Shown here: in pieces, positions 4,327 through 28,836 of the stretch
Position numbering within the stretch: position 1 is the stretch's first letter
Layout of the letters: the number at the start of each line of letters is the position of its first letter
Assembly (NCBI GenBank): GCA_017795025.1
Contig: CP051243.1
Coordinates: 3,372,897 to 3,436,896, forward strand
From: Flavobacteriales bacterium
Lineage (GTDB): Bacteria; Bacteroidota; Bacteroidia; Flavobacteriales; Schleiferiaceae
Length of the DNA stretch: 64,000 bases
Reading direction: 5' to 3'
Program-made: the position numbers and the translations under genes
Notes under the pieces: model-generated
The model's database searches: none
What the model saw: only the letters and a program-made list of their open reading frames with translations
Told to the model about the DNA's origin: nothing

Positions 4327-4433
4327 ACAATTAGGCTTAATTACGCTTAATTGCCGAAGAATAGCCAGAAGTGTAGACCTAACATTTATGGCTTTTCAAC
4401 TATATTTAGCCTTCAAAGTTTTTGAACCCGTTT

Positions 4434-6224
4434 ATGAAAGGAACAAGTCCCAGTCGCCTATTTGATTTTCCACGATATCAATTGGCCAATAAGCCCCTCC
4501 CTGATTCACTTGCCACCAAGGTAAATGGTAGTTGGAAAAAAATATCTACCCAAGAGTATATCGACTTAAGCGAGCAATTTGGTCGAGCGGTAATCGCCGC
4601 CGGACTGCAGCCAGGAGATAAGATTGCGGTGGCTTCAACTAATAATCGATATGAATGGAACATTTTGGATATCGGTACACTACAAGCCGGTTGTGTAGAT
4701 GTTCCTGTTTATCCCACCATTTCGGAAGATGACTATGAATACATCTTTAATGATGCTGGAGTAAAGCTGGTTTTTGTTTCGGATGAAGCCCTTTACGAAA
4801 AGGTGATTCACATAAAAGACAAGGTAGATGGCTTGGCCGAAATTTACACTTTTGATGAAGTGAAAGGGGCTCCCCATTGGATGGAGTTTATGGCTAAAGG
4901 GGAGGGAGATGCCCACCAAGCGGAGCTAGAGAAACGCATGGACGCCGTTGACTCCAAGGATCTTGCGACTTTAATCTATACCTCGGGGACCACCGGTCGA
5001 CCCAAAGGAGTAATGCTCTCTCATTGGAATATCGCTTCTAATAGCTTGGATTCTTTTCCTCGTATCCCCACCAAAGGAGATGATGAGTTAGCGCTTAGCT
5101 TCCTACCTCTTTGTCATGTATACGAGAGGATGCTGGTTTACCTCTATTGTTATGCTTGCGTGCCAATTTACTACGCCGAAAGCATGGAGGCGATTGGGGA
5201 TAATATTCGCGAAGTACATCCTACCATTTTTACTGCCGTGCCCCGTTTACTGGAAAAGATATACGACAAAATTGTAGCCAAAGGCTCGCAGCTTAGCGGA
5301 ATCAAAAAAAGCTTATTCTTTTGGGCCTTGGAGCTAGGAGAGGAGTATGAGTTAAGTGGTAAAAGCGCCTGGTATAACTTTCAATTGAAAATTGCCCGCA
5401 AGCTTATTTTCAGTAAGTGGTTAGAAGCTTTAGGTGGCAGAGTAAAGGCCATTGCGAGTGGTTCGGCAGCATTGAATCCTCGCTTGATTCGCATCTTTTC
5501 GGCTGCAGGAGTAAATATTCAGGAGGGTTATGGACTTACCGAAACCTCTCCGGTTATTTCTGTAAATGGACCAAACTTTGATTTGAAGCGTATTGGCACC
5601 GTGGGGAAATTAATAGACAATGTAGAGGTGAAAATTGCTGAAGACGGCGAAATCCTCTGCAAGGGTCCCAATGTAATGATGGGTTACTACAATAAACCCG
5701 AAGCTACCGCTGAGGTTCTTACTGAAGACGGCTGGTTCCATACCGGTGACATTGGTGAGTTTGTGGAAGGTGACTTCCTGAAAATTACCGATCGTAAAAA
5801 GGAAATCTTCAAAACGAGTGGGGGTAAATACATCGCTCCCCAATTGATGGAAACCCGTTATAAAGAATCACACTTCATTGAGCAGATAATGGTGATTGGC
5901 GAAGGAGAAAAGCATCCGGCAGCCATCATTCAACCCGACTTTGAATTCTTAAAATCCTATTGCGAACGAAAGGGAATTACCTATGGATCGGCGGCGGAAA
6001 TTGTGCAAAATGAGCGCATTCAATCTCGGATCAAAAAAGATATCGATGCCCTAAATGCCAATTTTGGAAAATGGGAGCAGGTTAAGAAGATTGAGCTCAG
6101 CGATCATCAGTGGACAGTAGATAGTGGTGAGTTAACCCCAACTATGAAACTAAAACGACGCATTGTTTTATCGCTGCATCAAGATCATTACGAACGCATT
6201 TATGGGCATAAGCCTGGAAAGTGA
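4434..6224 (+). CDS. fadD: Long-chain acyl-CoA synthetase (AMP-forming)
   Basis: Activates free fatty acids to acyl-CoA with ATP, feeding the beta-oxidation enzymes encoded at 18-28 kb. The 596 residues match the bacterial FadD15/long-chain ligase group in length. Visible motifs are LIYTSGTTGRPKGVM near residues 184-198 (AMP/phosphate loop), GYGLTETSPV, GWFHTGDIGE and DRKKEIFKTSGGKYIAP. A TTG at 4422 is in frame, but ATG at 4434 is the natural start. No copy of the 22-bp fad operator seen at 17931 and 26421 is present upstream, so its control may differ. The next gene overlaps by one base (TGATG junction). Confidence 0.93.
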   Translation: MKGTSPSRLFDFPRYQLANKPLPDSLATKVNGSWKKISTQEYIDLSEQFGRAVIAAGLQPGDKIAVASTNNRYEWNILDIGTLQAGCVDVPVYPTISEDDYEYIFNDAGVKLVFVSDEALYEKVIHIKDKVDGLAEIYTFDEVKGAPHWMEFMAKGEGDAHQAELEKRMDAVDSKDLATLIYTSGTTGRPKGVMLSHWNIASNSLDSFPRIPTKGDDELALSFLPLCHVYERMLVYLYCYACVPIYYAESMEAIGDNIREVHPTIFTAVPRLLEKIYDKIVAKGSQLSGIKKSLFFWALELGEEYELSGKSAWYNFQLKIARKLIFSKWLEALGGRVKAIASGSAALNPRLIRIFSAAGVNIQEGYGLTETSPVISVNGPNFDLKRIGTVGKLIDNVEVKIAEDGEILCKGPNVMMGYYNKPEATAEVLTEDGWFHTGDIGEFVEGDFLKITDRKKEIFKTSGGKYIAPQLMETRYKESHFIEQIMVIGEGEKHPAAIIQPDFEFLKSYCERKGITYGSAAEIVQNERIQSRIKKDIDALNANFGKWEQVKKIELSDHQWTVDSGELTPTMKLKRRIVLSLHQDHYERIYGHKPGK

Positions 6225-10808: not shown

Positions 10809-10815
10809 ATATGCA

Positions 10816-11101
10816 CCCCGACTCTGAGCGCAGCACAAGGGAGGGGTGCATATAAAAATACCAAGGCATTGAGCGTAGCGAGATGTTGGGATTCTTGGTG
10901 ACGGTATCCCCTTAGGGTTCAGCGACTGAAAGGAGCTAATCCCTTACCTAAGTAAATACCCCGACTCTGAGCGCAGCACAAGGGAGGGGTGCATATAAAA
11001 ATACCAAGGCATTGAGCGTAGCGAGATGTTGGGATTCTTGGTGACGGTATCCCCTTAGGGTTCAGCGACTGAAAGGAGCTAATCCCTTACCTAAGTAAAT
11101 A
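10816..11101. repeat. Two identical 143-bp tandem repeats (family A)
   Basis: Bases 10816-10958 and 10959-11101 are identical over 143 bp by direct reading. Each unit holds several short inverted repeats: ACCAAG with CTTGGT, GGGAT with ATCCC, and TTCAG-CGA-CTGAA. No open reading frame is evident. Two diverged relatives follow at 11102 and 11489. The unit is noncoding and lies just behind the tRNA terminator. Confidence 0.93.
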
Positions 11102-17930: not shown

Positions 17931-17966
17931 AATTTACTATGCGTGCATAATTTTTTCATATCTTAG
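17931..17966 (+). promoter_or_regulatory. fad-type operator and promoter of the MarR-fadN-fadA operon
   Basis: Bases 17931-17952 are identical, in reverse complement, to 26421-26442 before fadE. The core TTTACTATGCGTGCATAA contains the dyad TATGC-GT-GCATA. The -7-like box TATCTTAG (17959-17966, one mismatch) follows 6 bp later, so the operator covers the -33 region and spacer. A repressor bound here would block the polymerase. The neighbouring MarR protein is the natural candidate. Confidence 0.75.
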
Positions 17967-17990
17967 CCGTGCTCCTAAAAAATATAGCTT

Positions 17991-18440
17991 TTGAAACCTG
18001 AAGAAACGGTTGATTTTCATATCAAGAGAACCTGGCAAAGCATAGCTAAAATGTACAATGAGGTAGCGGCTGGATATGGTGCCACCATGGCGACCGGATA
18101 CGTGCTCCTCAATATCGATAAAGAAAAAGGTACACCCAGCACAGCCTTGGGCCCAAAGATGGGTATGGAGGCCACCAGTTTATCCCGCATCTTAAAAAGT
18201 ATGGAAGAGAAAGGACTGATTGAACGAAAGCCGAATCCGGCGGACGGTCGCTCGGTCCTTGTTTTTTTAACTCCTTTTGGAATTGAAAAGCGTGCAGATG
18301 CTAAGGCGGCGGTGATTGGTTTTAATCAGCAGGTTTTTAATCGTTTCCCTCAACATGAACTAGACCTGTTTTTTAAGGTGATTCAAGGCATTGAATCAAT
18401 GCTTCAGGAGAACAAATTGGCAACTCAAGAAATTAAATAA
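17991..18440 (+). CDS. MarR-family regulator of beta-oxidation genes
   Basis: A 149-residue winged-helix protein of the MarR type. Recognition-helix region: TPSTALGPKMGMEATSLSRILKSMEEKGLIERKPNP (roughly residues 43-80), then the wing, DGRSVLVFLTPFG. The start codon is TTG: the N-terminus MKPEETVDFHIKRTWQSIAKMYN is what this Bacteroidota group usually shows and no suitable ATG precedes residue 21. It is first in an operon with fadN (4-bp gap). By analogy with other fatty-acid regulators, acyl-CoA may be the ligand; that is inference. Confidence 0.88.
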   Translation: MKPEETVDFHIKRTWQSIAKMYNEVAAGYGATMATGYVLLNIDKEKGTPSTALGPKMGMEATSLSRILKSMEEKGLIERKPNPADGRSVLVFLTPFGIEKRADAKAAVIGFNQQVFNRFPQHELDLFFKVIQGIESMLQENKLATQEIK

Positions 18441-18444
18441 TTGT

Positions 18445-20850
18445 ATGAGAAAATCTATTAAACACGCAACGGTAATTGGCTCTGGAATTATGGGAAGTCA
18501 AATTGCCTGCCATCTCGCGAATATTGGTCTGCGAGTTTTGTTATTGGATATAGTACCCCGCGAGCTTAGCGAGAAAGAGGAAAAAGCTGGCTTGAGTTTA
18601 GAGGATGCCCAGGTTCGGAATCGGATTGTAAATGAGAGTCTGGCTAAGGCAGTTAAGATGAACCCTGCACCTTTATTCGATAAGTCGTATGCCTCGCGCA
18701 TCAGCACCGGGAATATTGATGATGATTTAAACCAAGTGGCCAAGACCGATTGGATTATTGAGGTGGTCGTGGAACGTTTGGACATCAAGCAAAGCTTATT
18801 CGAAAAGATTGAAAAATATCGGAAACCAGGGACCCTTATTTCTTCCAATACTTCTGGAATTCCTATTCATTTAATGACCGAAGGTCGGTCGGAAGATTTT
18901 CAAAAGCATTTCTTGGGAACTCACTTCTTTAACCCTCCTCGCTACTTAGAGTTATTGGAGATTATCCCAACGCCCAAAACCGATCCTGAGGTAGTGGACT
19001 TCTTTATGCACTATGGAGATCGTTTTCTGGGGAAAACTACCGTATTATGTAAGGATACTCCAGCTTTTATCGCCAATAGGGTGGGTATTTTTGCCATTAT
19101 GGACCTCTTCCATAAGGTTCAGGATATGGGTCTTTCCGTAGAGGACATCGATAAGCTGACAGGTCCCTTAATTGGTCGTCCTAAATCGGCTACCTTCCGA
19201 ACAGCAGATGTGGTGGGCCTAGATACCCTAATACATGTAGCTAATGGATTAGCGAAAGCGGTTCCCCACGATGAAAAGAAGGATAAATTCCTTTTACCCG
19301 ATTTCTTGCAAAAAATGCAAGAGAATAATTGGTTGGGATCCAAAACCGGACAAGGTTTTTACAAAAAGATTAAAGGCGAAGGCGGTAAATCTGAAATCCT
19401 ATCCCTTGATCTCGATACCCTGGAATACACCCCGCAAAAGAAATCCAAATTCCCAACGCTCGAATTAACCAAAACCATCGATGATGTTAAAGAACGCTGG
19501 AAAGTATTAATCGGAGGAAAGGATAAGGCCGGAGAATTTTACCGTCGCAGTTTAGCCGGGGTCTTGGCCTATGCGGCTAATCGAATTCCAGAGATAGCCG
19601 ACGATCTTTTCCGGATTGATCAGGGTATGCGTGCCGGCTTTGGCTGGAAGCATGGACCCTTCGAAATTTGGGATGCCATCGGTTTAGATAAGGGTATTAA
19701 GCTTATCGAGGCTGAGGGTTTGGGCCTAGCCGATTGGGTGAAGAATCTTAAAGCGGCCGGCAAAGAATCTTTTTATACCGTTAAGGATGGTCAAGGCTAT
19801 TTTTATCATATCGGTGATGGAGACTACAAGGCCTTACCAGGCGGAAAGAGCTTTATTGTTCTTGATCATATCCGCCCCAGCAGTACCGTTTGGAAGAATA
19901 AGGAGTGCGCGGTCGAAGACCTTGGCGATGGTATTCTGAACATCGAGTTCCGCTCTAAAATGAACTCTTTAGGGAGTGGTGTTTTAGCGGGGATAAACAA
20001 GGGCATTGAATTGGCCGAAAAGGATTTCCAGGGCGTGGTGATTTCTAATCAAGGAGATAACTTTTCGGTGGGCGCCAATCTGGCCATGATCTTTATGATG
20101 GCCATTGAACAGGAGTTCGATGAGCTCAACTTTGCCATTAAGTACTTCCAAGATAGTATGATGCGGGTTCGTTACTCCTCGGTTCCGGTGGTAGTTGCGC
20201 CTCATCAAATGGCTTTAGGTGGAGGTTGCGAAATGTCGCTTCACGCGGATGCGGTTCAGGCTGCAGCTGAGACCTACATCGGATTAGTAGAATTTGGGGT
20301 TGGAGTAATCCCTGGAGGGGGCGGAACCAAGGAGCTCACCCGCAGAGCCGCACAGCGATACCTTAAAGACGATATTGAAACCAATGCTTATCGGGAAAAC
20401 CTTTTTATGATTGGTCAGGCGCAAGTCGCTAAATCAGCCAAGGAAGCTTTTAATATGGGGCTCTTTGTGGAAGGTAGAGATGGTATTTCTTTAAATCGAC
20501 ATCGTCTTATTGCCGACGCCAAGGAAAAGGCCATTGCTTTAGCAGAAACGGGTTATACCATGCCTGTGAAGGAAAAAGATATTAAGGTTTTAGGTCGCCA
20601 AGGACTGGGAATGTTTACAGTGGGCGCGAATACCATGTTGGAAGGAGGGTATATTACCCCTCATGAAAAGAAGATGGTAGAAAAGCTCGCTTACGTAATG
20701 TGTGGTGGCGATTTATCAGCCCCTACCATGGTTTCAGAACAGTATCTCCTCGATTTAGAACGGGAAGCATTCTTAAGTCTTTGTGGCGAAAAGAAAACCC
20801 TAGAGCGCATTCAACATATGTTGAAGACTGGGAAGCCGTTGAGGAATTAA
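18445..20850 (+). CDS. fadN: 3-hydroxyacyl-CoA dehydrogenase/enoyl-CoA hydratase, FadN type
   Basis: A bifunctional beta-oxidation enzyme of 801 residues: hydration of trans-2-enoyl-CoA and NAD-dependent oxidation of 3-hydroxyacyl-CoA. The NAD-binding motif GSGIMGS is at residues 12-18 and the HAD C-terminal segments follow (HFFNPPRYLELLEII, KDTPAFIANR). The enoyl-CoA hydratase/isomerase part is C-terminal, with GGGCEMSLHADAVQ and VGVIPGGGGTKE. This HAD-first order is that of Bacillus FadN and the reverse of E. coli FadB. ATG at 18445 was chosen over an in-frame start inside marR, since the Rossmann fold begins there. The end, HMLKTGKPLRN, looks complete. Confidence 0.94.
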   Translation: MRKSIKHATVIGSGIMGSQIACHLANIGLRVLLLDIVPRELSEKEEKAGLSLEDAQVRNRIVNESLAKAVKMNPAPLFDKSYASRISTGNIDDDLNQVAKTDWIIEVVVERLDIKQSLFEKIEKYRKPGTLISSNTSGIPIHLMTEGRSEDFQKHFLGTHFFNPPRYLELLEIIPTPKTDPEVVDFFMHYGDRFLGKTTVLCKDTPAFIANRVGIFAIMDLFHKVQDMGLSVEDIDKLTGPLIGRPKSATFRTADVVGLDTLIHVANGLAKAVPHDEKKDKFLLPDFLQKMQENNWLGSKTGQGFYKKIKGEGGKSEILSLDLDTLEYTPQKKSKFPTLELTKTIDDVKERWKVLIGGKDKAGEFYRRSLAGVLAYAANRIPEIADDLFRIDQGMRAGFGWKHGPFEIWDAIGLDKGIKLIEAEGLGLADWVKNLKAAGKESFYTVKDGQGYFYHIGDGDYKALPGGKSFIVLDHIRPSSTVWKNKECAVEDLGDGILNIEFRSKMNSLGSGVLAGINKGIELAEKDFQGVVISNQGDNFSVGANLAMIFMMAIEQEFDELNFAIKYFQDSMMRVRYSSVPVVVAPHQMALGGGCEMSLHADAVQAAAETYIGLVEFGVGVIPGGGGTKELTRRAAQRYLKDDIETNAYRENLFMIGQAQVAKSAKEAFNMGLFVEGRDGISLNRHRLIADAKEKAIALAETGYTMPVKEKDIKVLGRQGLGMFTVGANTMLEGGYITPHEKKMVEKLAYVMCGGDLSAPTMVSEQYLLDLEREAFLSLCGEKKTLERIQHMLKTGKPLRN

Positions 20851-20853
20851 AAT

Positions 20854-20884
20854 GAGATGTGAGATGTGAGATGTGAGATGTGAG
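20854..20884 (+). repeat. Left 7-bp repeats flanking the four-helix-bundle gene
   Basis: Four tandem copies of GAGATGT plus GAG, starting 4 bp after the fadN stop. Their reverse complement (TCTCACA/TCTCAAA units) lies directly behind the next gene at 21261-21290, so the two arrays form imperfect terminal inverted repeats around it. Confidence 0.85.
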
Positions 20885-20897
20885 AAAAATTTTAAAA

Positions 20898-21260
20898 ATG
20901 CACAATTTCAAAGAGTTGAAGATTTGGCAATTTGGAATTCAAATTGCAGAAGAGGTTTATCTAATTAGCAAAGGCTTTCCCCAAGAGGAGCAGTTTGGCT
21001 TAACTAGCCAGTTGAGACGGGCTGCCATTTCAATACCTTCCAATATTGCAGAAGGAGCCGGTCGTAAAACAGATAAGGATTTTAATAGGTTTTTAGACAT
21101 GGCGAATGGATCAATCAATGAGGTAGAAACGCAGGTGCTATTAGCCCTAAGACTTGGCTTTGTTGAACCCTCGGAAAAGATTGATGAATTACTCAAGCGT
21201 TTGGATGAAGTGCAAAAAATGATCTTTTCCCTTCAAAAGTCCTTAATTACAAGACCCTAG
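20898..21260 (+). CDS. Four-helix-bundle protein (23S rRNA intervening-sequence type)
   Basis: A 120-residue all-helical protein of the S23/IVS four-helix-bundle family, with the hallmarks FKELKIWQFGIQIAEEVY, FGLTSQLRRAAISIPSNIAEG and a final helix region LDEVQKMIFSLQKSL. Related proteins were first found encoded within intervening sequences of 23S rRNA genes and are often multicopy; the biochemical role is unknown. ATG at 20898 was used, since MHNFKELKIW is the usual beginning. It interrupts the fadN-fadA pair and is bordered by inverted GAGATGT-type repeats, so a recent insertion is likely. Confidence 0.88.
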   Translation: MHNFKELKIWQFGIQIAEEVYLISKGFPQEEQFGLTSQLRRAAISIPSNIAEGAGRKTDKDFNRFLDMANGSINEVETQVLLALRLGFVEPSEKIDELLKRLDEVQKMIFSLQKSLITRP

Positions 21261-21290
21261 TCTCAAATCTCACATCTCAAATCTCACATC
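21261..21290 (-). repeat. Right 7-bp repeats flanking the four-helix-bundle gene
   Basis: Alternating TCTCAAA and TCTCACA units begin at the base after the stop codon. On the minus strand they read GAGATGT and GAGATTT, matching the left array at 20854-20884 in inverted orientation. Confidence 0.82.
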
Positions 21291-21325
21291 CGACACCAAA
21301 AAAATAAAACTTTAAGATAATATTT

Positions 21326-22501
21326 ATGAATGCATACATCGTAGCCGCAAAACGCACAGCAGTAGGAAAGGCCCCTAAAGGAGTATTTCGCTTTACCCGT
21401 CCCGATAATTTGGCGGGGACGCTTATCCGCGAAATTATGAAGGACCTCCCGCAATTGGATAAAGAGCGTATCGACGACGTAATTGTAGGTAATGCCATGC
21501 CCGAAGCGGAGCAAGGAATGAATATGGCCCGCTTGGTGTCCTTAATGGGTTTAGATACCGTAAAGGTTCCAGGTGTAACGGTTAATCGCTGGTGTGCCAG
21601 TGGTTTAGAAACCATTGCCATGGCTTCGGCTAAAATTCATGCCGGTATTGCCGATTGTATCATCGCTGGGGGAGTGGAAAGCATGAGCTACATTCCCATG
21701 GGTGGTTTTAAACAGGTTCCGAGTTATGAATTAGCGAAGGAGCACGCCGATTATTACAATAATATGGGCCTTACGGCAGAAGCAGTAGCGGAGAAGTACA
21801 AGGTTTCGAGGGAGGATCAGGATCAATTTGGATTTGATTCGCACATGAAGGCTTTGGCTGCTATCGAAAGTGGTCGCTTTAAAGATGATATCGTACCCAT
21901 AGAAGTGGAGGAGGTTTACCTCGATGAAAATGAAAAACGGCAGGTACGTACCTACACCGTAGACACGGATGAAGGACCGCGTAAGGGAACTAATGTAGAG
22001 GCCATGTCCAAATTACGTCCCGTTTTTGCAGCCAAAGGTTCCGTTACGGCGGGTAACTCCTCTCAAATGAGTGATGGCGCAGCCTTTGTGGTAGTGATGA
22101 GCGAAAAGATGGTAAATGAATTAGGTTTAAAACCCATTGCCCGATTACTCAATTACCAGGTTGTAGGAGTGGAACCCCGAATCATGGGAATTGGACCGGT
22201 GGATGCCATTCCCAAGGCTTTAAAGGCAGCTGGAATGAAAAAGGATGATATCGATTTATTCGAGCTAAACGAAGCTTTTGCCTCTCAGTCTCTCGCTGTA
22301 ATTCGAGAATTGGATTTAGATCCGAGCAAAGTGAATGTGAATGGTGGGGCTATTGCCATGGGACATCCATTAGGCTGTACGGGCGCTAAGCTTTCCGTGC
22401 AAATTTTTAATGAACTTAAAAAACGCGACCAGAAATACGGCATGGTGACCATGTGCGTAGGTGAGGGTCAAGGAGCAGCAGGAATTTACGAGCTGCTATA
22501 A
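21326..22501 (+). CDS. fadA: Acetyl-CoA C-acyltransferase (thiolase)
   Basis: Cleaves 3-ketoacyl-CoA with CoA to give acetyl-CoA, the last step of beta-oxidation. The 391 residues are full length. The acylated Cys is in [11 protein letters not shown] near residue 90, and the C-terminal motifs are [18 protein letters not shown] and [13 protein letters not shown], with the catalytic His and second Cys. It is the third enzyme-operon gene after marR and fadN and is separated from fadN by the inserted four-helix-bundle gene. A terminator follows. Confidence 0.95.
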
Positions 22502-22521
22502 ATTTAATTGTGATTAGATTC

Positions 22522-22563
22522 ATAAGCCTCTGCTGCATTTTGCGGTAGGGGCTTATTTTTTTT
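22522..22563 (+). terminator. Rho-independent terminator of the fad operon
   Basis: ATAAGCC pairs with GGCTTAT across an imperfect inner stem, followed by a run of eight T. Confidence 0.8.
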
Positions 22564-22632
22564 CATTCCCTTTGTCCCTTTCTTGGGTCGCTATTCGTAT
22601 TAGCTAGTACAAGAATCAAAATCTCTTATAAA

Positions 22633-24186
22633 ATGAAGAAATTAGTACTTAGCCTCTTATGCATGTTTAGCCTTAGTGCTTTTGCTCAGGGGAACCTTAC
22701 CGTAACAGTATCCGACAGTGGTGTAGTAGCCCCTGGGGTAGCTGTTTTCTATTTTAACTCCCCCGCCAGCTTTTATCCTAATGGATATAATAATCCGCCG
22801 GTAATCGAAAACTTCGATGCTTGGGGATATACGAGCAACAATGGTGTAGCAACCTTTGGACTTTGGAATGTAGCCATGAACGATACCGTTTTTTGGGCTA
22901 CTAAGGATTGCGCCGGAAACGTGGTTTGGGGTGCAGGAACGCCAACGACCATGATGCCAAGTATTAGCGGCACCTTATGGCTAGGCTGTTTACCGGGAGA
23001 TTGTGACGTGGTATTAACTGTGGACAGTGCTGCTACTCCAGCGGCCAACTATGGTATCATCCAGGCTTTCCCTTTACGTAACTTCACTAATACCAGTTTA
23101 CCAGGTAATATACCATCATTATGGTCGGTAAATGGTAACTATTCTTCAGGATTTACCAGTGCGAATTACGATAGTATCACCTTTAATATGAATACGGTTT
23201 CAGCACCTTACACTGTTACCTATTCTCGTGTGGATAGCCTTTGTTTACCTACAACTGTAAGCTTTGGTGGCACCGGTGGTGGTGGCGGTACCAATGTTAC
23301 TTGTAATCCTGCTTTCTTTGCCGATACTTTAGGGCAAACCGGATCAGGATACGGAATGTTATTCCGCGATGCTTCCATTAGCAATGGGACAATCATAAAC
23401 TACATGTGGGACTTTGGTGATGGTAATGCTTTAAATGGTACTACCTCAAACCCTACTCACACTTACGCCAATAGCGGAACTTATGCCGTTTGCTTAACGA
23501 TTACTGCAGTGTTAGGTTCGGATACCTGTAGTTCTACTTATTGCGACAGCGCCGTGTTTGTACCAGCCGGAGGTGGAGGTGGAAACCCAAATCCAATTAC
23601 CTGTAATGCAAGTTATATGGTAGATACCGTGAACTCTGGTCTATTCCAAAATCAATTAGTGATTTGGGAAACCTCTACATCTACCGGTAATATCATCAGC
23701 TACAGCTGGGACTTTGGCGACGGAACCGTTATTAACACCCAATACCCAAGCCATACTTATGCTAACACTGGCGTGTACCCCGTATGCCTAAGCATCGTAG
23801 CTATTGACAGTGCGGGAGTGGATACTTGTATGACTACTTTCTGCGATTCTATTGGATTTGATGCCAACGGTAATCTTGTATACAAGGAAGGTCAAAATGG
23901 CTTTACCATTAATGTTATCGATCCTGCTACGGTAGGTTTAGAGGACTTACTCTTAAACGAAAGTTTAGCCATGTATCCAAACCCTGCACAAGGTCGTGTG
24001 AACTTATCTTGGGATGCTTCACTAGAAGTTCAAACGGTAGCGGTTTATACCATTAGCGGACAACAAGTGATGGACCTTAAAGCCGAGGGCTCTGAAATGG
24101 AGATTAGCAATTTACCTGCAGGTGCTTACCTGGTACGAGTGAATGCTGCTTCAGCAAGCAAGACCTTGCGTTTAATTGTACAATAA
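22633..24186 (+). CDS. Secreted PKD-domain protein with T9SS type A sorting domain
   Basis: A 517-residue protein with the signal peptide MKKLVLSLLCMFSLSAFA. Two PKD domains are clear: WDFGDGNALNGTTSNPTHTY (about residue 260) and WDFGDGTVINTQYPSHTYA (about residue 355), each ending in a CLTI/CLSI strand and Cys-rich loop. They are separated by Gly-rich linkers (GGTGGGGGTN, AGGGGGNP). The C-terminus, LAMYPNPAQGRVNLSWD...LPAGAYLVRVNAAS...LIVQ, is a type A sorting domain, so the protein should be exported by type IX secretion. It is placed between the fad operon and the sigma-factor pair; a shared function is not evident. Confidence 0.88.
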   Translation: MKKLVLSLLCMFSLSAFAQGNLTVTVSDSGVVAPGVAVFYFNSPASFYPNGYNNPPVIENFDAWGYTSNNGVATFGLWNVAMNDTVFWATKDCAGNVVWGAGTPTTMMPSISGTLWLGCLPGDCDVVLTVDSAATPAANYGIIQAFPLRNFTNTSLPGNIPSLWSVNGNYSSGFTSANYDSITFNMNTVSAPYTVTYSRVDSLCLPTTVSFGGTGGGGGTNVTCNPAFFADTLGQTGSGYGMLFRDASISNGTIINYMWDFGDGNALNGTTSNPTHTYANSGTYAVCLTITAVLGSDTCSSTYCDSAVFVPAGGGGGNPNPITCNASYMVDTVNSGLFQNQLVIWETSTSTGNIISYSWDFGDGTVINTQYPSHTYANTGVYPVCLSIVAIDSAGVDTCMTTFCDSIGFDANGNLVYKEGQNGFTINVIDPATVGLEDLLLNESLAMYPNPAQGRVNLSWDASLEVQTVAVYTISGQQVMDLKAEGSEMEISNLPAGAYLVRVNAASASKTLRLIVQ

Positions 24187-24205
24187 GATCAATTAACCCT
24201 ATGGG

Positions 24206-24245
24206 AAGGAAGTGCGTCTTGGAATTTTTCCGAGACGCTTTCCTT
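24206..24245. terminator. Long hairpin after the PKD gene
   Basis: AAGGAA..GCGTCT.GGAA pairs with TTCC.AGACGC..TTCCTT around a T-rich loop. There is no long T run, so it may be an inefficient terminator or an mRNA-end stabiliser. The ECF sigma gene begins 13 bp later. Confidence 0.55.
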
Positions 24246-24258
24246 ACCTTGAGTTTTA

Positions 24259-24828
24259 ATGGACAGGCAGCTTCAGAAAATTATAAAGAAGTGCCGGAAG
24301 AACGATCGCCAAGCACAATTTGATCTTTATCATTCTTGCTTCGATTACCTTCTGGCTATTTGCTTTCGCTACCAGCGTCAGCGTGAAGATGCCGTGTCGC
24401 TACTAAACGAGGCCTTTTTAAAAATCCTGCTCAACCTGGACTCTTATGATTCTAAAAAGGATTTTAAGCCATGGGCAGCTACCATTACGGTGCGTACGGC
24501 CATAGACCAATATCGCAGCGAGCAAAGCTATAAGGAGAATACCGACTTTAAAGAAAGTGATGCCGACCTAGAGGAGGTGCAGCTAGGGCCCGCTCAACAA
24601 AAGTTGATGGAGGGTTTAAGTGCCGATGATGTTCAAGACCTCATTTTTGGTTTACCTGAACGCGATCGAATGGTATTCGTTTTACATGAGTGGGAGGGCT
24701 ACCAACATTATGAAATAGCCCAAAAGTTGAATTGCTCCGAGCGCAGTTCAAAGCGCTACTTAAGAGCAGCAAAAGATAAATTAAGGAAAGAGCTGAGCCA
24801 TATGCAAGCCTTAAAAAAAGTGATCTAA
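24259..24828 (+). CDS. RNA polymerase sigma factor, ECF subfamily
   Basis: A 189-residue sigma-70 family protein. Region 2 is visible as FDLYHSCFDYLLAICFRYQRQREDAVSLLNEAFLKILLNLDSY (residues 22-64) and region 4 as LPERDRMVFVLHEWEGYQHYEIAQKLNCSERSSKRYL (residues 132-170). The acidic linker between them is longer than usual. It overlaps the next gene by one base (TAATG), so the downstream membrane protein is translationally coupled and could be its partner or inhibitor. Confidence 0.9.
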   Translation: MDRQLQKIIKKCRKNDRQAQFDLYHSCFDYLLAICFRYQRQREDAVSLLNEAFLKILLNLDSYDSKKDFKPWAATITVRTAIDQYRSEQSYKENTDFKESDADLEEVQLGPAQQKLMEGLSADDVQDLIFGLPERDRMVFVLHEWEGYQHYEIAQKLNCSERSSKRYLRAAKDKLRKELSHMQALKKVI

Positions 24829-26336
24829 TGGCCGAGAATTGGAATAAATTAAAAGATAAAATTGGTGCTGATGCCCAAGGTCCGACCCCTGCGGACTGGG
24901 AGGCTATGCAAGCCAAAATTGATGCACAGCCCTCGCTTAGGCCAGCGGTAGCATCAAAACTTTGGGTTAACTGGTTAGTGGCAGGATCTCTAGGAATTTT
25001 GCTGGGTATTGCAGTGGTTTATTTTTGGCCCAATGCTTCAGGGGAGCAGGGCTTAGAAGTAAATGATGCCCAAGCAATGCCTGCGCTTAGTAAAGGGGAT
25101 GAGGAAGCTAGCGAAGTAGCAGCAAAGCGGAAAAGGGAGAATGTCGCCTTCGAAGAGAATAGCACATCTTCTACCGAGCATTCGGTAAATCAAAATGAAA
25201 TTCAAGCTACTGAGATTAGGGAGCTTAATCTTAACCAATCCGTGACCACTGTAAATGTGGTCGATCAAGAGGAAGATATTGCCGCGAACCGAGAACAAAA
25301 TCAAGAAATCACTCGAGCGGAACCGGAGGTAAATGGTTTTAAAGCCTTCCCGAATCAGGACTTTAGTAGTGGAGCTACACCAGAAATTACGGAGGAAGGG
25401 TCTGACTTTGCCGCTGCTAATGCAAGCCAAGAGCTAGCGAGTCCCTCAGCCAGTAATATGGAGGCGGAAACGGAAGCGGATGATAATCCATCAGGCGAAA
25501 GCCTAATGGCCAATGCAGATCTGCCTAGCATTGATTCGAGCGCAGGTCAAACAAAAGCCTTTAGGGCCGAGCAACAAGATTCCTCAGAGGCTGCTGTGAT
25601 CGAAAACGCTGAGGGGGCTGCCAATGCGGCATTCATCCCTCCAAGCACAGGTTTTAAACTGGAACGAGCAAATTTACTTCTGGGACTTAATCACGACTTA
25701 CAATCGCCGGCAACATCCGCGTATGGATTTGGACTTGAGTTGCAATGGCAAAAGAAGGCGCAATTTTTTATTGCGGGAATTGGGTATTACCGAATTGAGC
25801 AGGGACTTCGGTTCGAAAGCTTAGCTCAAACGACCCGACTGGATAGTACTTGGAAAGAGGAAATTGGTACCAAGGAAATCAAGGAGGTTAGCCGGATTTG
25901 GGTAATTGACTCCTTCCAAGCTGGGCATTATGTATATGATACTACCCTGCGCATTGTGGCCGACACCAACATTATTTTAAATGTAGATACAAACCAATAC
26001 CAGACAAAAATCGTAAACCAAACAGTAAGGCCTTACTATTATGCCGAATTGCCACTCCTATATGGTTATCAATTCGGTCGCGGCCCTTGGCAATTCCAAG
26101 TGGCTGGTGGTTTAGCTTTACAACAGGCCATTGCCTACAGTAATGATGAAGATGGCAGTCGGTCGCTGTTTGGTATGTCAGCATTAATGCAACCTGCATT
26201 AGCATGGCGCTTCAGTGATCGTTGGTCGGCTTTGGCCCGCGTGCAATTGCGCTATCCGCTAAAACAGGATGTCGCCCTGTACGAAGAACCCGCTTTTAGG
26301 TATTCTTTCCAGTTGGGCGTATCCTTCCGCTGGTAA
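24828..26336 (+). CDS. Inner-membrane-anchored protein with outer-membrane-like beta-barrel domain
   Basis: A 502-residue protein. Residues 1-43 are soluble and cytoplasmic-like, with a PTPADWEAMQAKID segment of the kind seen in Bacteroidota sigma-partner proteins. A transmembrane helix spans about 44-66 (LWVNWLVAGSLGILLGIAVVYF). Residues 70-280 are low-complexity, acidic, Ala/Glu/Ser-rich. The last 220 residues alternate in the manner of an outer-membrane beta-barrel (ANLLLGLNHDL, FGLELQWQKKAQFFIAGIGYY, final strand FRYSFQLGVSFRW). There is no cleavable signal peptide. Coupled to the ECF sigma gene, it may be an anti-sigma factor with a sensing domain; that role is inferred. Confidence 0.7.
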   Translation: MAENWNKLKDKIGADAQGPTPADWEAMQAKIDAQPSLRPAVASKLWVNWLVAGSLGILLGIAVVYFWPNASGEQGLEVNDAQAMPALSKGDEEASEVAAKRKRENVAFEENSTSSTEHSVNQNEIQATEIRELNLNQSVTTVNVVDQEEDIAANREQNQEITRAEPEVNGFKAFPNQDFSSGATPEITEEGSDFAAANASQELASPSASNMEAETEADDNPSGESLMANADLPSIDSSAGQTKAFRAEQQDSSEAAVIENAEGAANAAFIPPSTGFKLERANLLLGLNHDLQSPATSAYGFGLELQWQKKAQFFIAGIGYYRIEQGLRFESLAQTTRLDSTWKEEIGTKEIKEVSRIWVIDSFQAGHYVYDTTLRIVADTNIILNVDTNQYQTKIVNQTVRPYYYAELPLLYGYQFGRGPWQFQVAGGLALQQAIAYSNDEDGSRSLFGMSALMQPALAWRFSDRWSALARVQLRYPLKQDVALYEEPAFRYSFQLGVSFRW

Positions 26337-26370
26337 GGATTTGTAGATTACAAAGGATACTCTGCAAAGG

Positions 26371-26404
26371 AGGTGCTTCTTGAAAAAGAAGCACCTTTTT
26401 TTTT
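26371..26404 (+). terminator. Strong Rho-independent terminator
   Basis: AGGTGCTTCTT-GAAA-AAGAAGCACCT is a perfect 11-bp stem with a GAAA loop followed by T residues to 26404. It insulates the fadE promoter. Confidence 0.95.
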
Positions 26405-26420
26405 GAATTCACCCTGATTT

Positions 26421-26454
26421 AATTATGCACGCATAGTAAATTTTAGTATTTTTG
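26421..26454 (+). promoter_or_regulatory. fad-type operator and promoter of fadE
   Basis: Bases 26421-26442 are the exact reverse complement of 17931-17952 (core here TTATGCACGCATAGTAAA). A perfect -7 box TATTTTTG (26447-26454) follows 4 bp later. As at the marR promoter, the site takes the place of the -33 box. The predicted start is near 26460, giving a leader of about 18 nt to the ATG at 26478. Confidence 0.75.
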
Positions 26455-26477: not shown

Positions 26478-28280
26478 ATGGCAGAAGTCGATAAAAAGTC
26501 CTTTATAAAAGGTGGTGAGTTTTTAATTCGTGAAGTAGTAAGTGATGAGGTGTTTATTCCCGAGGAATTTGGGGAGGAACAAAAAATGATGGCTCAAGCC
26601 ACCAGCGATTTCATTGATAAGGAGGTAGCACCCCAAAGGGAGCGATTTGAGGCTAAAGACTATGCTTTTACCGAAGAGGTGATGAAAAAAGCTGGAGAGC
26701 TGGGTTTATTAGGAATTAGTGTGCCTGAGCAATACGGCGGATTGGGAATGGATTTCAATACTTCAATGTTGGTATGTGACCGTATTTCGGGGATCTCCGG
26801 TTCTTTATCAACTGCCTATGGTGCCCATACCGGAATTGGCACCCTTCCCATTCTATTATATGGAACCGAGGAACAAAAGCAAAAATACTTACCTGGCTTG
26901 GCTTCAGGCGAACTGATGGGGGCTTACTGTCTTACAGAGCCCGGTGCCGGTTCCGATGCCAATAGCGGGAAAACGAAGGCGGAGCTTAGCGCAGATGGAA
27001 AAACGTATAAGATTAACGGTCAGAAAATTTGGATTTCTAATGCTGGCTTTGCCGATGTGTTCACGGTTTTTGCTCGGATTGAAGACGATAAATACCTCAC
27101 CGCTTTTATAGTAGATAAGGGTAATCCCGGAATGAGCTTTGGTGAGGAAGAGAATAAACTGGGAATTCGTGCGAGTTCCACCCGACAGGTGTTTTTCAAT
27201 GACTGCGAGGTTCCATTAGAAGCAATGTTGGGCGAAAGAAATGGCGGTTTTAAAATTGCCATGAACGCCTTAAACTATGGTCGAATCAAATTATCAGTAG
27301 CCTGTTTAGATGCCGCGCGCAGGGTTACCACTCATGCTGTTTCTTATGCCAATGAGCGGAAGCAGTTCGGCACGGCCATTTCTTCCTTTGGGGCCATTCA
27401 ACAGAAATTAGCGGATATGGCCACTAAAACATGGGTGGCAGAGTCGGCTACTTACCGGGCTGGTCAGGATGTTGAGAATAACATTAGTCGCCTCATGGAA
27501 TCGGGAATGGATCAAGGTGAAGCGAAATTAAAAGGGGTGGAAGAATATGCCATCGAATGTGCTATTCTTAAAGTCCTAGGCTCGGAAGCTGGAAGTTTTG
27601 TGGCCGACGAAGGTTTACAGATATACGGTGGAATGGGCTACAGCGCCGATGCCCCGCTAGAGGCCGCTTACCGCGATATGCGAATTGCCCGTATCTATGA
27701 GGGTACCAATGAGATTAATCGCCTACACTCGGTAGCGATGTTGCTCAAGAAAGCCCTTAAAGGGGAGCTAGACTTAATGAGTCCCGCTATGGCCGTAGCC
27801 AACGAATTGATGGAGATTCCATCTTTTGATACGCCAGATTACGACAGCCTTTTTGCAGAAGAAAAGGAGTATGTCGCCAAAATGAAGAAAGCCATCTTAA
27901 TGGTGGCCGGTAAGGCGGTTGAAACTTTTGGGATGGACCTCGAGCAGGAGCAGGAAATCATTATGAATGCTGCTGATATGATTATTGAAGTTTATGCCGC
28001 AGAGTCGGCTATTTTGAGAGCCGAAAAGCTGGCCTCCCAAAATGGAGAAGCCGCTCATGAGGTAGAAATAGCGATGGCTAAATTGTACTTGCATTGGGCT
28101 CAAGAAGCGGTGGCCAATAAAGGACGAGAGGCCATTTATAGCTTTATCGAAGGGGATGAGCAAAGAATGATGCTTATCGGCTTAAAGCGATTTACTAAGC
28201 CCAGTAATCCGGTAAATGTGAAGGCTTTACGCCGAGTAATTGCCGCACGGGTAATTGATCAAAATAAATATCCTTTCTAG
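26478..28280 (+). CDS. fadE: Acyl-CoA dehydrogenase, long-chain type
   Basis: An FAD-dependent enzyme that makes trans-2-enoyl-CoA, the first step of beta-oxidation. The 600 residues are the long form, with an extra C-terminal helical domain as in Bacillus FadE and VLCAD/ACAD9. Motifs are GAYCLTEPGAGSDANSGKTKA, WISNAGFADVFTVFARI, YANERKQFG, LQIYGGMGYSADAPLEAAYRD and IYEGTNEINRLH, the last with the catalytic-base Glu near residue 413. A GTG at 26475 is in frame; ATG at 26478 is preferred. It is a monocistronic unit with its own operator and terminator. Confidence 0.94.
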   Translation: MAEVDKKSFIKGGEFLIREVVSDEVFIPEEFGEEQKMMAQATSDFIDKEVAPQRERFEAKDYAFTEEVMKKAGELGLLGISVPEQYGGLGMDFNTSMLVCDRISGISGSLSTAYGAHTGIGTLPILLYGTEEQKQKYLPGLASGELMGAYCLTEPGAGSDANSGKTKAELSADGKTYKINGQKIWISNAGFADVFTVFARIEDDKYLTAFIVDKGNPGMSFGEEENKLGIRASSTRQVFFNDCEVPLEAMLGERNGGFKIAMNALNYGRIKLSVACLDAARRVTTHAVSYANERKQFGTAISSFGAIQQKLADMATKTWVAESATYRAGQDVENNISRLMESGMDQGEAKLKGVEEYAIECAILKVLGSEAGSFVADEGLQIYGGMGYSADAPLEAAYRDMRIARIYEGTNEINRLHSVAMLLKKALKGELDLMSPAMAVANELMEIPSFDTPDYDSLFAEEKEYVAKMKKAILMVAGKAVETFGMDLEQEQEIIMNAADMIIEVYAAESAILRAEKLASQNGEAAHEVEIAMAKLYLHWAQEAVANKGREAIYSFIEGDEQRMMLIGLKRFTKPSNPVNVKALRRVIAARVIDQNKYPF

Positions 28281-28419: not shown

Positions 28420-28836
28420 ATGGTAGGAGTTTGTCCAAATTGTGGCGCTGAAGAAGCTACTAAATCTGGTGTAGTTAAGGGGCGGCAACGTTATAAATGT
28501 AAAAACTGCGCGTATCATTATACGGTCTCGAGGTTAGGTAAGCGCATTGATGATTACTACGTTACTAAAGCCTTACAACTTTATCTCGAAGGGCTTAGCT
28601 ATAGGGAGATAGAGCGAATTTTGGGAGTGTCTCATGTTAGTGTGATTAACTGGGTTCGTCAGCACAAGGTGAAGCGTCCTTTTAAGTCGAACTACCATCC
28701 AACCTATCGAATTTTAACCCATGAGGAGCTCTTGAAGTTTTATCAAGATGCCAGCAACCTTAAAGGAGCCGGTATGGTGGTCACTGAACTCGGGGATAAG
28801 TATATGCTGATTCGCTGGGAACGCTTTAAAGAATAG
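28420..28836 (+). CDS. Transposase-derived zinc-ribbon/HTH protein, putative regulator
   Basis: A 138-residue protein with an IS1 InsA/IS1595-type zinc ribbon at the N-terminus (Cys5, Cys8, Cys27, Cys30) and a helix-turn-helix around residues 55-76 (EGLSYREIERILGVSHVSVINWVRQH). No DDE catalytic domain, no InsB partner and no terminal inverted repeats are visible. The C-terminal 40 residues (LKGAGMVVTELGDKYMLIRWERF) do not look like transposase. It directly precedes the acetate-transport genes on the same strand. The likely job is DNA-binding control of that module, from context rather than direct evidence. Confidence 0.75.
   Translation: MVGVCPNCGAEEATKSGVVKGRQRYKCKNCAYHYTVSRLGKRIDDYYVTKALQLYLEGLSYREIERILGVSHVSVINWVRQHKVKRPFKSNYHPTYRILTHEELLKFYQDASNLKGAGMVVTELGDKYMLIRWERFKE

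Follow-up and report, generated by a model that had tools for sequence, protein, structure and literature searches.

Why does the same 22-base-pair (bp) sequence stand in front of two separate sets of fat-degrading genes? The question is raised by a stretch of 64,000 nucleotides (the window) from contig CP051243.1 of a Flavobacteriales bacterium. One copy precedes the genes marR, fadN and fadA. A second copy, in reverse orientation, precedes fadE. We propose that the repeat is the operator of an autoregulated MarR repressor of beta-oxidation, which is released from the DNA by acyl-coenzyme A (acyl-CoA) and is an analogue of FadR. We give this reading a probability of about 80%. From sequence comparison we have high confidence that the two sites are regulatory. 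They very probably form a shared switch, through which a MarR-type protein jointly controls the fat-degrading genes.

The preliminary description of this DNA had reported an exact reverse-complement pair with differing flanks, and this is what we find. Bases 17931–17952 are the exact reverse complement of bases 26421–26442 (22-mer AATTTACTATGCGTGCATAATT), and the flanking bases are unlike. In a scan of the whole window, the pair is the sole source of exact inverted matches of at least 20 bp. While the exact repeat stands, the notion of an inverted unit is better replaced by a 22-bp palindrome centred on the dyad TATGC-RY-GCATA (R, purine; Y, pyrimidine). Since the unit is a palindromic frame around this dyad, its orientation means little. 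The operator consensus is the palindrome TTTAYTATGC-RY-GCATARTAAA. In the window's own genome the palindrome is imperfect: 12 of the 22 positions are symmetric at the marR site and 16 of the 22 at the fadE site (Table 1).

Alternatively, the two copies could be a chance or repeat-derived match with no regulatory role. The motif holds an ATGCAT-like palindrome, which can recur by chance, and the genome has other short repeats. However, the 18-bp core with at most three mismatches matches twice in the window, where 0.04 matches are expected. Across ten named Flavobacteriaceae genomes the site matches 51 times on each strand, but its reversed pattern only once and twice. The placement relative to the promoter is also conserved. 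The recurrence of the site at the same genes in relatives and its co-occurrence with MarR (both below) contradict a chance match as well. On the window expectation, the reversed-pattern control and the uniqueness of the inverted repeat we reject a chance repeat, whose probability we consider negligible.

The genome record is a single contig of 3,439,134 bases. Two of its sites (7246 and 15736) duplicate two others (3390829 and 3399319), and the surrounding 3 kb are identical in both pairs. The equal offsets suggest that the contig ends overlap by ~55 kb. The contig, which seems to carry one region (the window from ~10.7 kb on) at both ends, is probably an untrimmed circular assembly. Because the record carries the same sites twice, genome-wide counts need correction. 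The corrected count is two exact sites, one site with two mismatches and five with three mismatches.

The site with two mismatches (3296240) lies before etfB and etfA, genes of the electron transfer flavoprotein (ETF) family (PF01012). A pyruvate dehydrogenase beta-like gene with transketolase domains diverges from them. ETF accepts electrons from acyl-CoA dehydrogenases. The fad genes of the window had rightly been called a beta-oxidation set, and this set is now extended by its electron acceptor, encoded outside the window.

The exact core TATGC-RY-GCATA occurs at four unique places in the genome: before marR, fadE, etfBA and an LpoB-like open reading frame (ORF; 26 bits, cut-off 22.3). At this fourth place (2441773) the distance from the core is 35 bp to the LpoB-like ORF and 192 bp to a divergent one, and the core precedes the same ORFs in five congeners (L202, L207, L237, L238 and L240). 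The site is conserved genus-wide (L044:1466–1512), and the LpoB-like protein there is probably secreted. Many unrelated copies in the genome can be rejected: the remaining exact matches to TATGC-NN-GCATA (297560, 1123952 and 1127035) all fall within ORFs, and their centres are different.

The acyl-CoA ligase gene of the window (4422–6224) had been described as lacking the site. An operator for the ligase can indeed be rejected, the best match in the 400 bp upstream having seven mismatches.

Is the site kept in relatives? For the window's family we took the upstream regions of 30 loci per gene, the best of 47 marR, 37 fadE and 57 etfB matches. We searched up to 300 bp upstream for the palindrome with a score threshold of 31 (the 99% point of single-base shuffles is 30) and chose sites by a core-weighted score. 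The palindrome is present before marR in 26 of 30 loci, before fadE in 25 of 30 and before etfB in 18 of 30 (the etfB of the window's own genome among them). Ten core bases are invariant at all 26 marR and all 25 fadE sites, an invariance that is partly selection because the sites were picked by a core-weighted score. The centre is RY at all selected marR and fadE sites except two fadE sites.

All five fadE loci without a site (in G004, G008, G018, G025 and G034) adjoin an upstream fadA, with a gap of 20–34 bases (142 in G018), and sit within 4.05–4.7 kb of marR. Such genes can therefore share the marR promoter. Among the 11 fadE loci with an adjoining upstream fadA, six have the site and five do not. 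All 19 loci without fadA found alongside have it, and some of these stretches end at contig ends. Other sites in the family are found in front of genes for a thioesterase, alpha/beta hydrolases, a patatin-like protein or TonB receptors; there are also sites before several genes without an evident lipid link.

Beyond the family, the palindrome precedes marR in all 80 of the best 80 of 581 loci. These are mostly Flavobacteriaceae (Maribacter, Arenibacter, Eudoraea, Aquimarina, Zobellia, Cellulophaga, a Flavobacterium and others). Five of them (L114–L118) are already in the family set. The palindrome is perfect (22 of 22 positions) in 52 of 75 loci of this set. Of the 80 loci, 69 show the order fadD, operator, marR-fadN-fadA-fadE (loci with one additional small ORF included), and the other 11 have a subset. 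The arrangement in the window, with fadE apart under its own operator, looks derived. At some marR promoters, two operators or near-operators stand in tandem ~28 bp apart (measured at L330:1523–1562; by eye at L356, L357 and L359).

The preliminary description expected conservation in relatives and further sites before other fatty-acid genes. Both are found: marR, fadE and etfB carry the site across the family and the order, and in relatives further lipid genes do as well. To read the regulon we used 52 stretches from the ten named Flavobacteriaceae genomes, covering 54 listed places. In 50 of the 52 stretches (52 of the 54 places) a gene begins close to the site that is either marR itself or falls into the lipid, ETF, outer-membrane or related classes. 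Because these gene classes were defined from the same loci, the number serves to describe the regulon and cannot test enrichment independently; that role falls to the control with the reversed pattern. MarR and EtfB carry the site in all ten genomes and a 4HBT thioesterase in six. One type of TonB-dependent receptor has it in six genomes and three other types once each. Ketoacyl synthase III (KAS III) genes account for seven instances in six genomes and nitronate monooxygenase for five, of which four diverge from the thioesterase. Two short-chain dehydrogenases/reductases, read as dienoyl-CoA-reductase type, and two GDSL-like lipoproteins, both under the Pfam cut-off, also have the site. FadD, an acyl-CoA dehydrogenase, a flavin oxidoreductase read as FadH-like and FadL/OMPP1 have it once each. 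Two site-bearing stretches (L317 and L343) contain no such gene. As a sequence pattern, a common operator stands before scattered beta-oxidation genes.

Which protein reads the site? Of 247 Bacteroidota genomes sampled, 46 contain the MarR protein: 30 Flavobacteriales (the window's own genome counted) and 16 others of the class. It was not found outside the class in this sample. The core site is present in 41 of the 46 genomes with MarR versus 29 of the 201 without (Fisher p = 2e-22), and the 201 have at most two core matches per strand. Within the order, all 30 MarR genomes have the core site, elsewhere in the class 11 of 16. For eight of these 16 we read the region upstream of marR: four contain the exact core, two a near match by eye and two neither. 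The same association holds in the family, where the site occurs in 39 of 45 genomes with MarR versus three of 15 without a MarR match (Fisher p = 4e-6).

The centre of the dyad provides another line of evidence. In two family genomes (G021 and G030) the marR, fadE and etfB sites are all centred on AA/TT instead of RY, and the recognition helices of their MarR proteins are unlike most others. Such a concerted change across separate contigs fits one trans-acting protein that reads all sites. Three more genomes of genus g3 all have the palindrome before marR, two of them with an AA/TT centre. G039 has a TT centre at etfB, and MarR was not found in this genome.

The regulator itself has a MarR winged-helix domain (PF01047, 46.1 bits, cut-off 24.6). 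Only MarR-type and related winged-helix models match it, and no GntR or TetR DNA-binding domain was found. None of the named NCBIfam MarR equivalogs (Saro_0803, BilQ, HpaR, SlyA and others) scores above its cut-off; the best is Saro_0803 with 50.7 bits against 200. The top-listed Foldseek matches of its AlphaFold2 model, a confident one, are MarR-type proteins. The top fold matches in the PDB include CouR with DNA (6c2s), CouR with p-coumaroyl-CoA (5cyv) and HcaR (4rgx), which makes a CoA-thioester ligand plausible. A sequence comparison with PDB entries for a clue to the ligand returned general MarR relatives and nothing clear.

Conservation at the same genes, and the way the site tracks the presence and absence of MarR, strongly support the MarR-fad regulon proposed in the preliminary description. 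The correlation also strongly suggests that the MarR encoded at the first site is the binder of the palindrome.

How would MarR act? Bacteroidota promoters are of the -33/-7 type. Since -7-like boxes start 4–6 bp after the two copies (Table 1), the repeat falls where the -33 element would be expected, as first described. In relatives we took the -7 box with the best simple score, which leaves a few doubtful cases, and the distance from the dyad centre to the box is mostly 17 bases (16 of 25 fadE sites; 53 of 75 marR loci, with 15 more at 18). At marR in the window's genus the distance is 13–15. From this geometry we infer repression by promoter occlusion at marR and fadE.

In the proposed mechanism a MarR dimer binds the palindrome. 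Bound at the marR-fadN-fadA and fadE promoters, it would cover the -33 element and block RNA polymerase, and thus MarR would repress itself. Incoming fatty acids would be activated by the acyl-CoA ligase, whose gene lacks the site here. Acyl-CoA, most likely long-chain, would then bind MarR, and MarR would leave the operator. The beta-oxidation enzymes and EtfBA would rise together. The effect of MarR may be weaker or different at etfB, whose product also works with other dehydrogenases. Pathway logic and known CoA-thioester-sensing MarR proteins make acyl-CoA probably the inducer.

Several observations weigh against this reading, and they concern both etfB and the identity of the binder. At etfB, 12 of 30 family loci lack the site. 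Where it is present, the distance from dyad to box is 33 in 11 of 18 loci and 22 in four of 18, and the operator directly adjoins a -33-like element on its upstream side. Hence simple occlusion may fail at etfB, and activation is possible there. MarR may bind the palindrome but respond to something other than acyl-CoA (free fatty acid, hydroxyacyl-CoA, acyl-acyl carrier protein (acyl-ACP) or redox state), or it may activate at some promoters, chiefly etfB. The binding of FabT, also a MarR protein, is aided by acyl-ACP according to excerpts of PMC9083066 and PMC5487221, and KAS III genes, which are of the synthesis type, carry the site in some genomes. However, the marR and fadE sites overlap the -33 place at near-constant spacing, the usual layout of a repressor. 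The simplest assumption is that the ligase produces the inducer, given that most of the regulon serves catabolism. Moreover, MarR proteins that sense CoA thioesters exist, and one of them, CouR (excerpts of PMC5487221), is among the closest folds. We therefore regard a different inducer or mode of action as unlikely, though it is the most serious competitor to release of a repressor by acyl-CoA.

The remaining objections concern the binder. The reading rests on sequence comparison, and the evidence for MarR as the reader of the site is correlation throughout. The palindrome was not found before marR in three genomes of genus g9 (G008, G025 and G034), and G014 has a weak match only. The three g9 loci (L029, L031 and L030 for G008, G025 and G034) have MarR, fadA and fadE in order. 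We rejected an alternative operator in g9 after reading the upstream regions of these three genomes by eye, as we saw no palindrome shared by all of them. Outside the order, five of the 16 MarR-bearing genomes lack the exact core site. Conversely, three family genomes have sites but no MarR match; these are fragmented assemblies, 80–92% complete. In G021 and G030 the core of the etfB site also deviates at other places. The idea that one residue of the recognition helix sets the centre dinucleotide is not supported, as L363 has Asn there with a normal centre.

Another regulator, co-inherited with the fad genes, might read the palindrome, and the neighbouring MarR might have a different target. 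The correlative evidence and the MarR operon without a site in g9 speak for this. Against it, the site stands at marR's own promoter in the family and in the further loci, and it follows MarR presence across the phylum. None of 12 MarR-less genomes (genera g12 and g13) has an exact core site, though nine of them keep etfB. These 12 genomes also lack a close fadE, so that target loss is partly confounded with regulator loss, and this belongs with the objections as well. Overall, we consider a separate reader very unlikely and retain the neighbouring MarR as the predicted binder.

A wider reading, which we favour with clear reservations, goes beyond the window. MarR may be the master regulator of fatty-acid use in Flavobacteriales and, through the same operator, in part of the class beyond this order. 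A single switch would govern uptake (FadL/TonB), activation (FadD), beta-oxidation including the enzymes for unsaturated fats, ETF, thioesterase and KAS III. The MarR family would here replace the GntR and TetR regulators of other bacteria, with an operator that stays nearly constant while the target set is repeatedly rebuilt. If this is true, KAS III under the same switch could return acyl-CoA to synthesis, and a fadE split from the operon carries its own operator.

Table 1. Features of the two loci, in window positions.
Feature	Positions	Strand	Remarks
Predicted MarR operator, marR-fadN-fadA promoter	17933..17954	+	22-bp palindromic frame; core TATGCGTGCATA at 17938-17949; kept upstream of marR in relatives
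-7-like box TATCTTAG, marR-fadN-fadA	17959..17966	+	6 bp past repeat; operator over expected -33 position
marR, MarR family regulator	17991..18440	+	TTG start (relatives have TTG or ATG there); AlphaFold2 predicted local distance difference test (pLDDT) 89.7
fadN, 3-hydroxyacyl-CoA dehydrogenase / enoyl-CoA hydratase	18445..20850	+	ORF opens at 18391; ATG 18445 after marR stop
fadA, acetyl-CoA acyltransferase (thiolase)	21326..22501	+	Profile matches
Predicted MarR operator, fadE promoter	26419..26440	+	Palindromic frame; core TATGCACGCATA; kept upstream of fadE in family
-7-like box TATTTTTG, fadE	26447..26454	+	4 bp past repeat
fadE, acyl-CoA dehydrogenase	26478..28280	+	NCBIfam NF058590 above cut-off; ORF from GTG 26475, close relatives favour ATG 26478

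Between fadN and fadA lies an ORF of the PF05635 four-helix-bundle type (20880–21260; the family of 23S rRNA intervening-sequence proteins). It is flanked by inverted heptamer arrays (20853–21290), TGAGATG 4.7 times on the left and TCTCAAA 4.3 times on the right. A relative of this ORF stands between fadN and fadA in 17 of the 80 loci and between fadA and fadE in 10 of the 80, a pattern as if ORFs of this type were repeatedly inserting into the fad operon. Heptamer arrays of a similar kind occur at other places in the genome, and seven further stretches that were fetched contain no relative of the PF05635 ORF. The interval between fadA and fadE (22633–26336) encodes a PKD protein with a secretion-tail domain, an extracytoplasmic function (ECF) sigma factor and an ORF of 502 amino acids that has no Pfam or NCBIfam match. 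On its 3' side fadE adjoins an ORF resembling an IS1-family transposase (28420–28836; NCBIfam NF033558, 73.6 bits, below the cut-off of 100). Direct repeats of at least 20 bp lie at 10815–10980 (for example at 10815 and 10958).

Bacteroidota are abundant degraders of organic matter. With a defined operator and regulator, the control of their fat use becomes directly testable in culturable Zobellia, Cellulophaga, Maribacter and Flavobacterium. The site also hints at functions for unassigned outer-membrane receptors and for KAS III paralogues that have it, and it may offer a fatty-acid-responsive promoter for Bacteroidota. Among the matches listed from the open literature, we found no description of the operator, of a MarR-type regulator of beta-oxidation in Bacteroidota or of a FadR equivalent for this phylum. 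One motif string matched in one nematode paper and another in three plant papers, and four others matched nowhere.

How does the system compare with known ones? In Bacillus, fadNAE is controlled by FadR of the TetR family, and the gene order fadN-fadA-fadE is found there too. In Proteobacteria the regulation of fat catabolism is well described, with the regulons of FadR (GntR family) and of PsrA and FadP (TetR family; excerpts of PMC5343134). Like these, the system proposed here has a single regulator and a common operator before scattered beta-oxidation genes, a likeness of arrangement. Unlike them and the Bacillus FadR, its regulator belongs to the MarR family, is encoded within the fad operon and occurs in Bacteroidota.

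FabT of streptococci and enterococci resembles the proposed system in form: it is a MarR-family protein with a palindromic operator and is the first gene of the lipid operon that it controls (excerpts of PMC13046290). However, FabT governs synthesis (fab) genes, aided by acyl-ACP (excerpts of PMC9083066 and PMC5487221), whereas here fadN-fadA(-fadE) lie downstream. CouR, HcaR and FerC are MarR-family catabolic regulators tied to hydroxycinnamoyl-CoA (excerpts of PMC5487221). Our MarR resembles CouR and HcaR in its fold and in a pathway that runs via CoA thioesters. In contrast to the present case, the substrates of CouR, HcaR and FerC are aromatic and not fatty, and identity in structural alignments is only ~22%. 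The repeat is best explained as the operator of a MarR-type regulator that governs the use of fatty acids, with an unusually wide and clean record of conservation.

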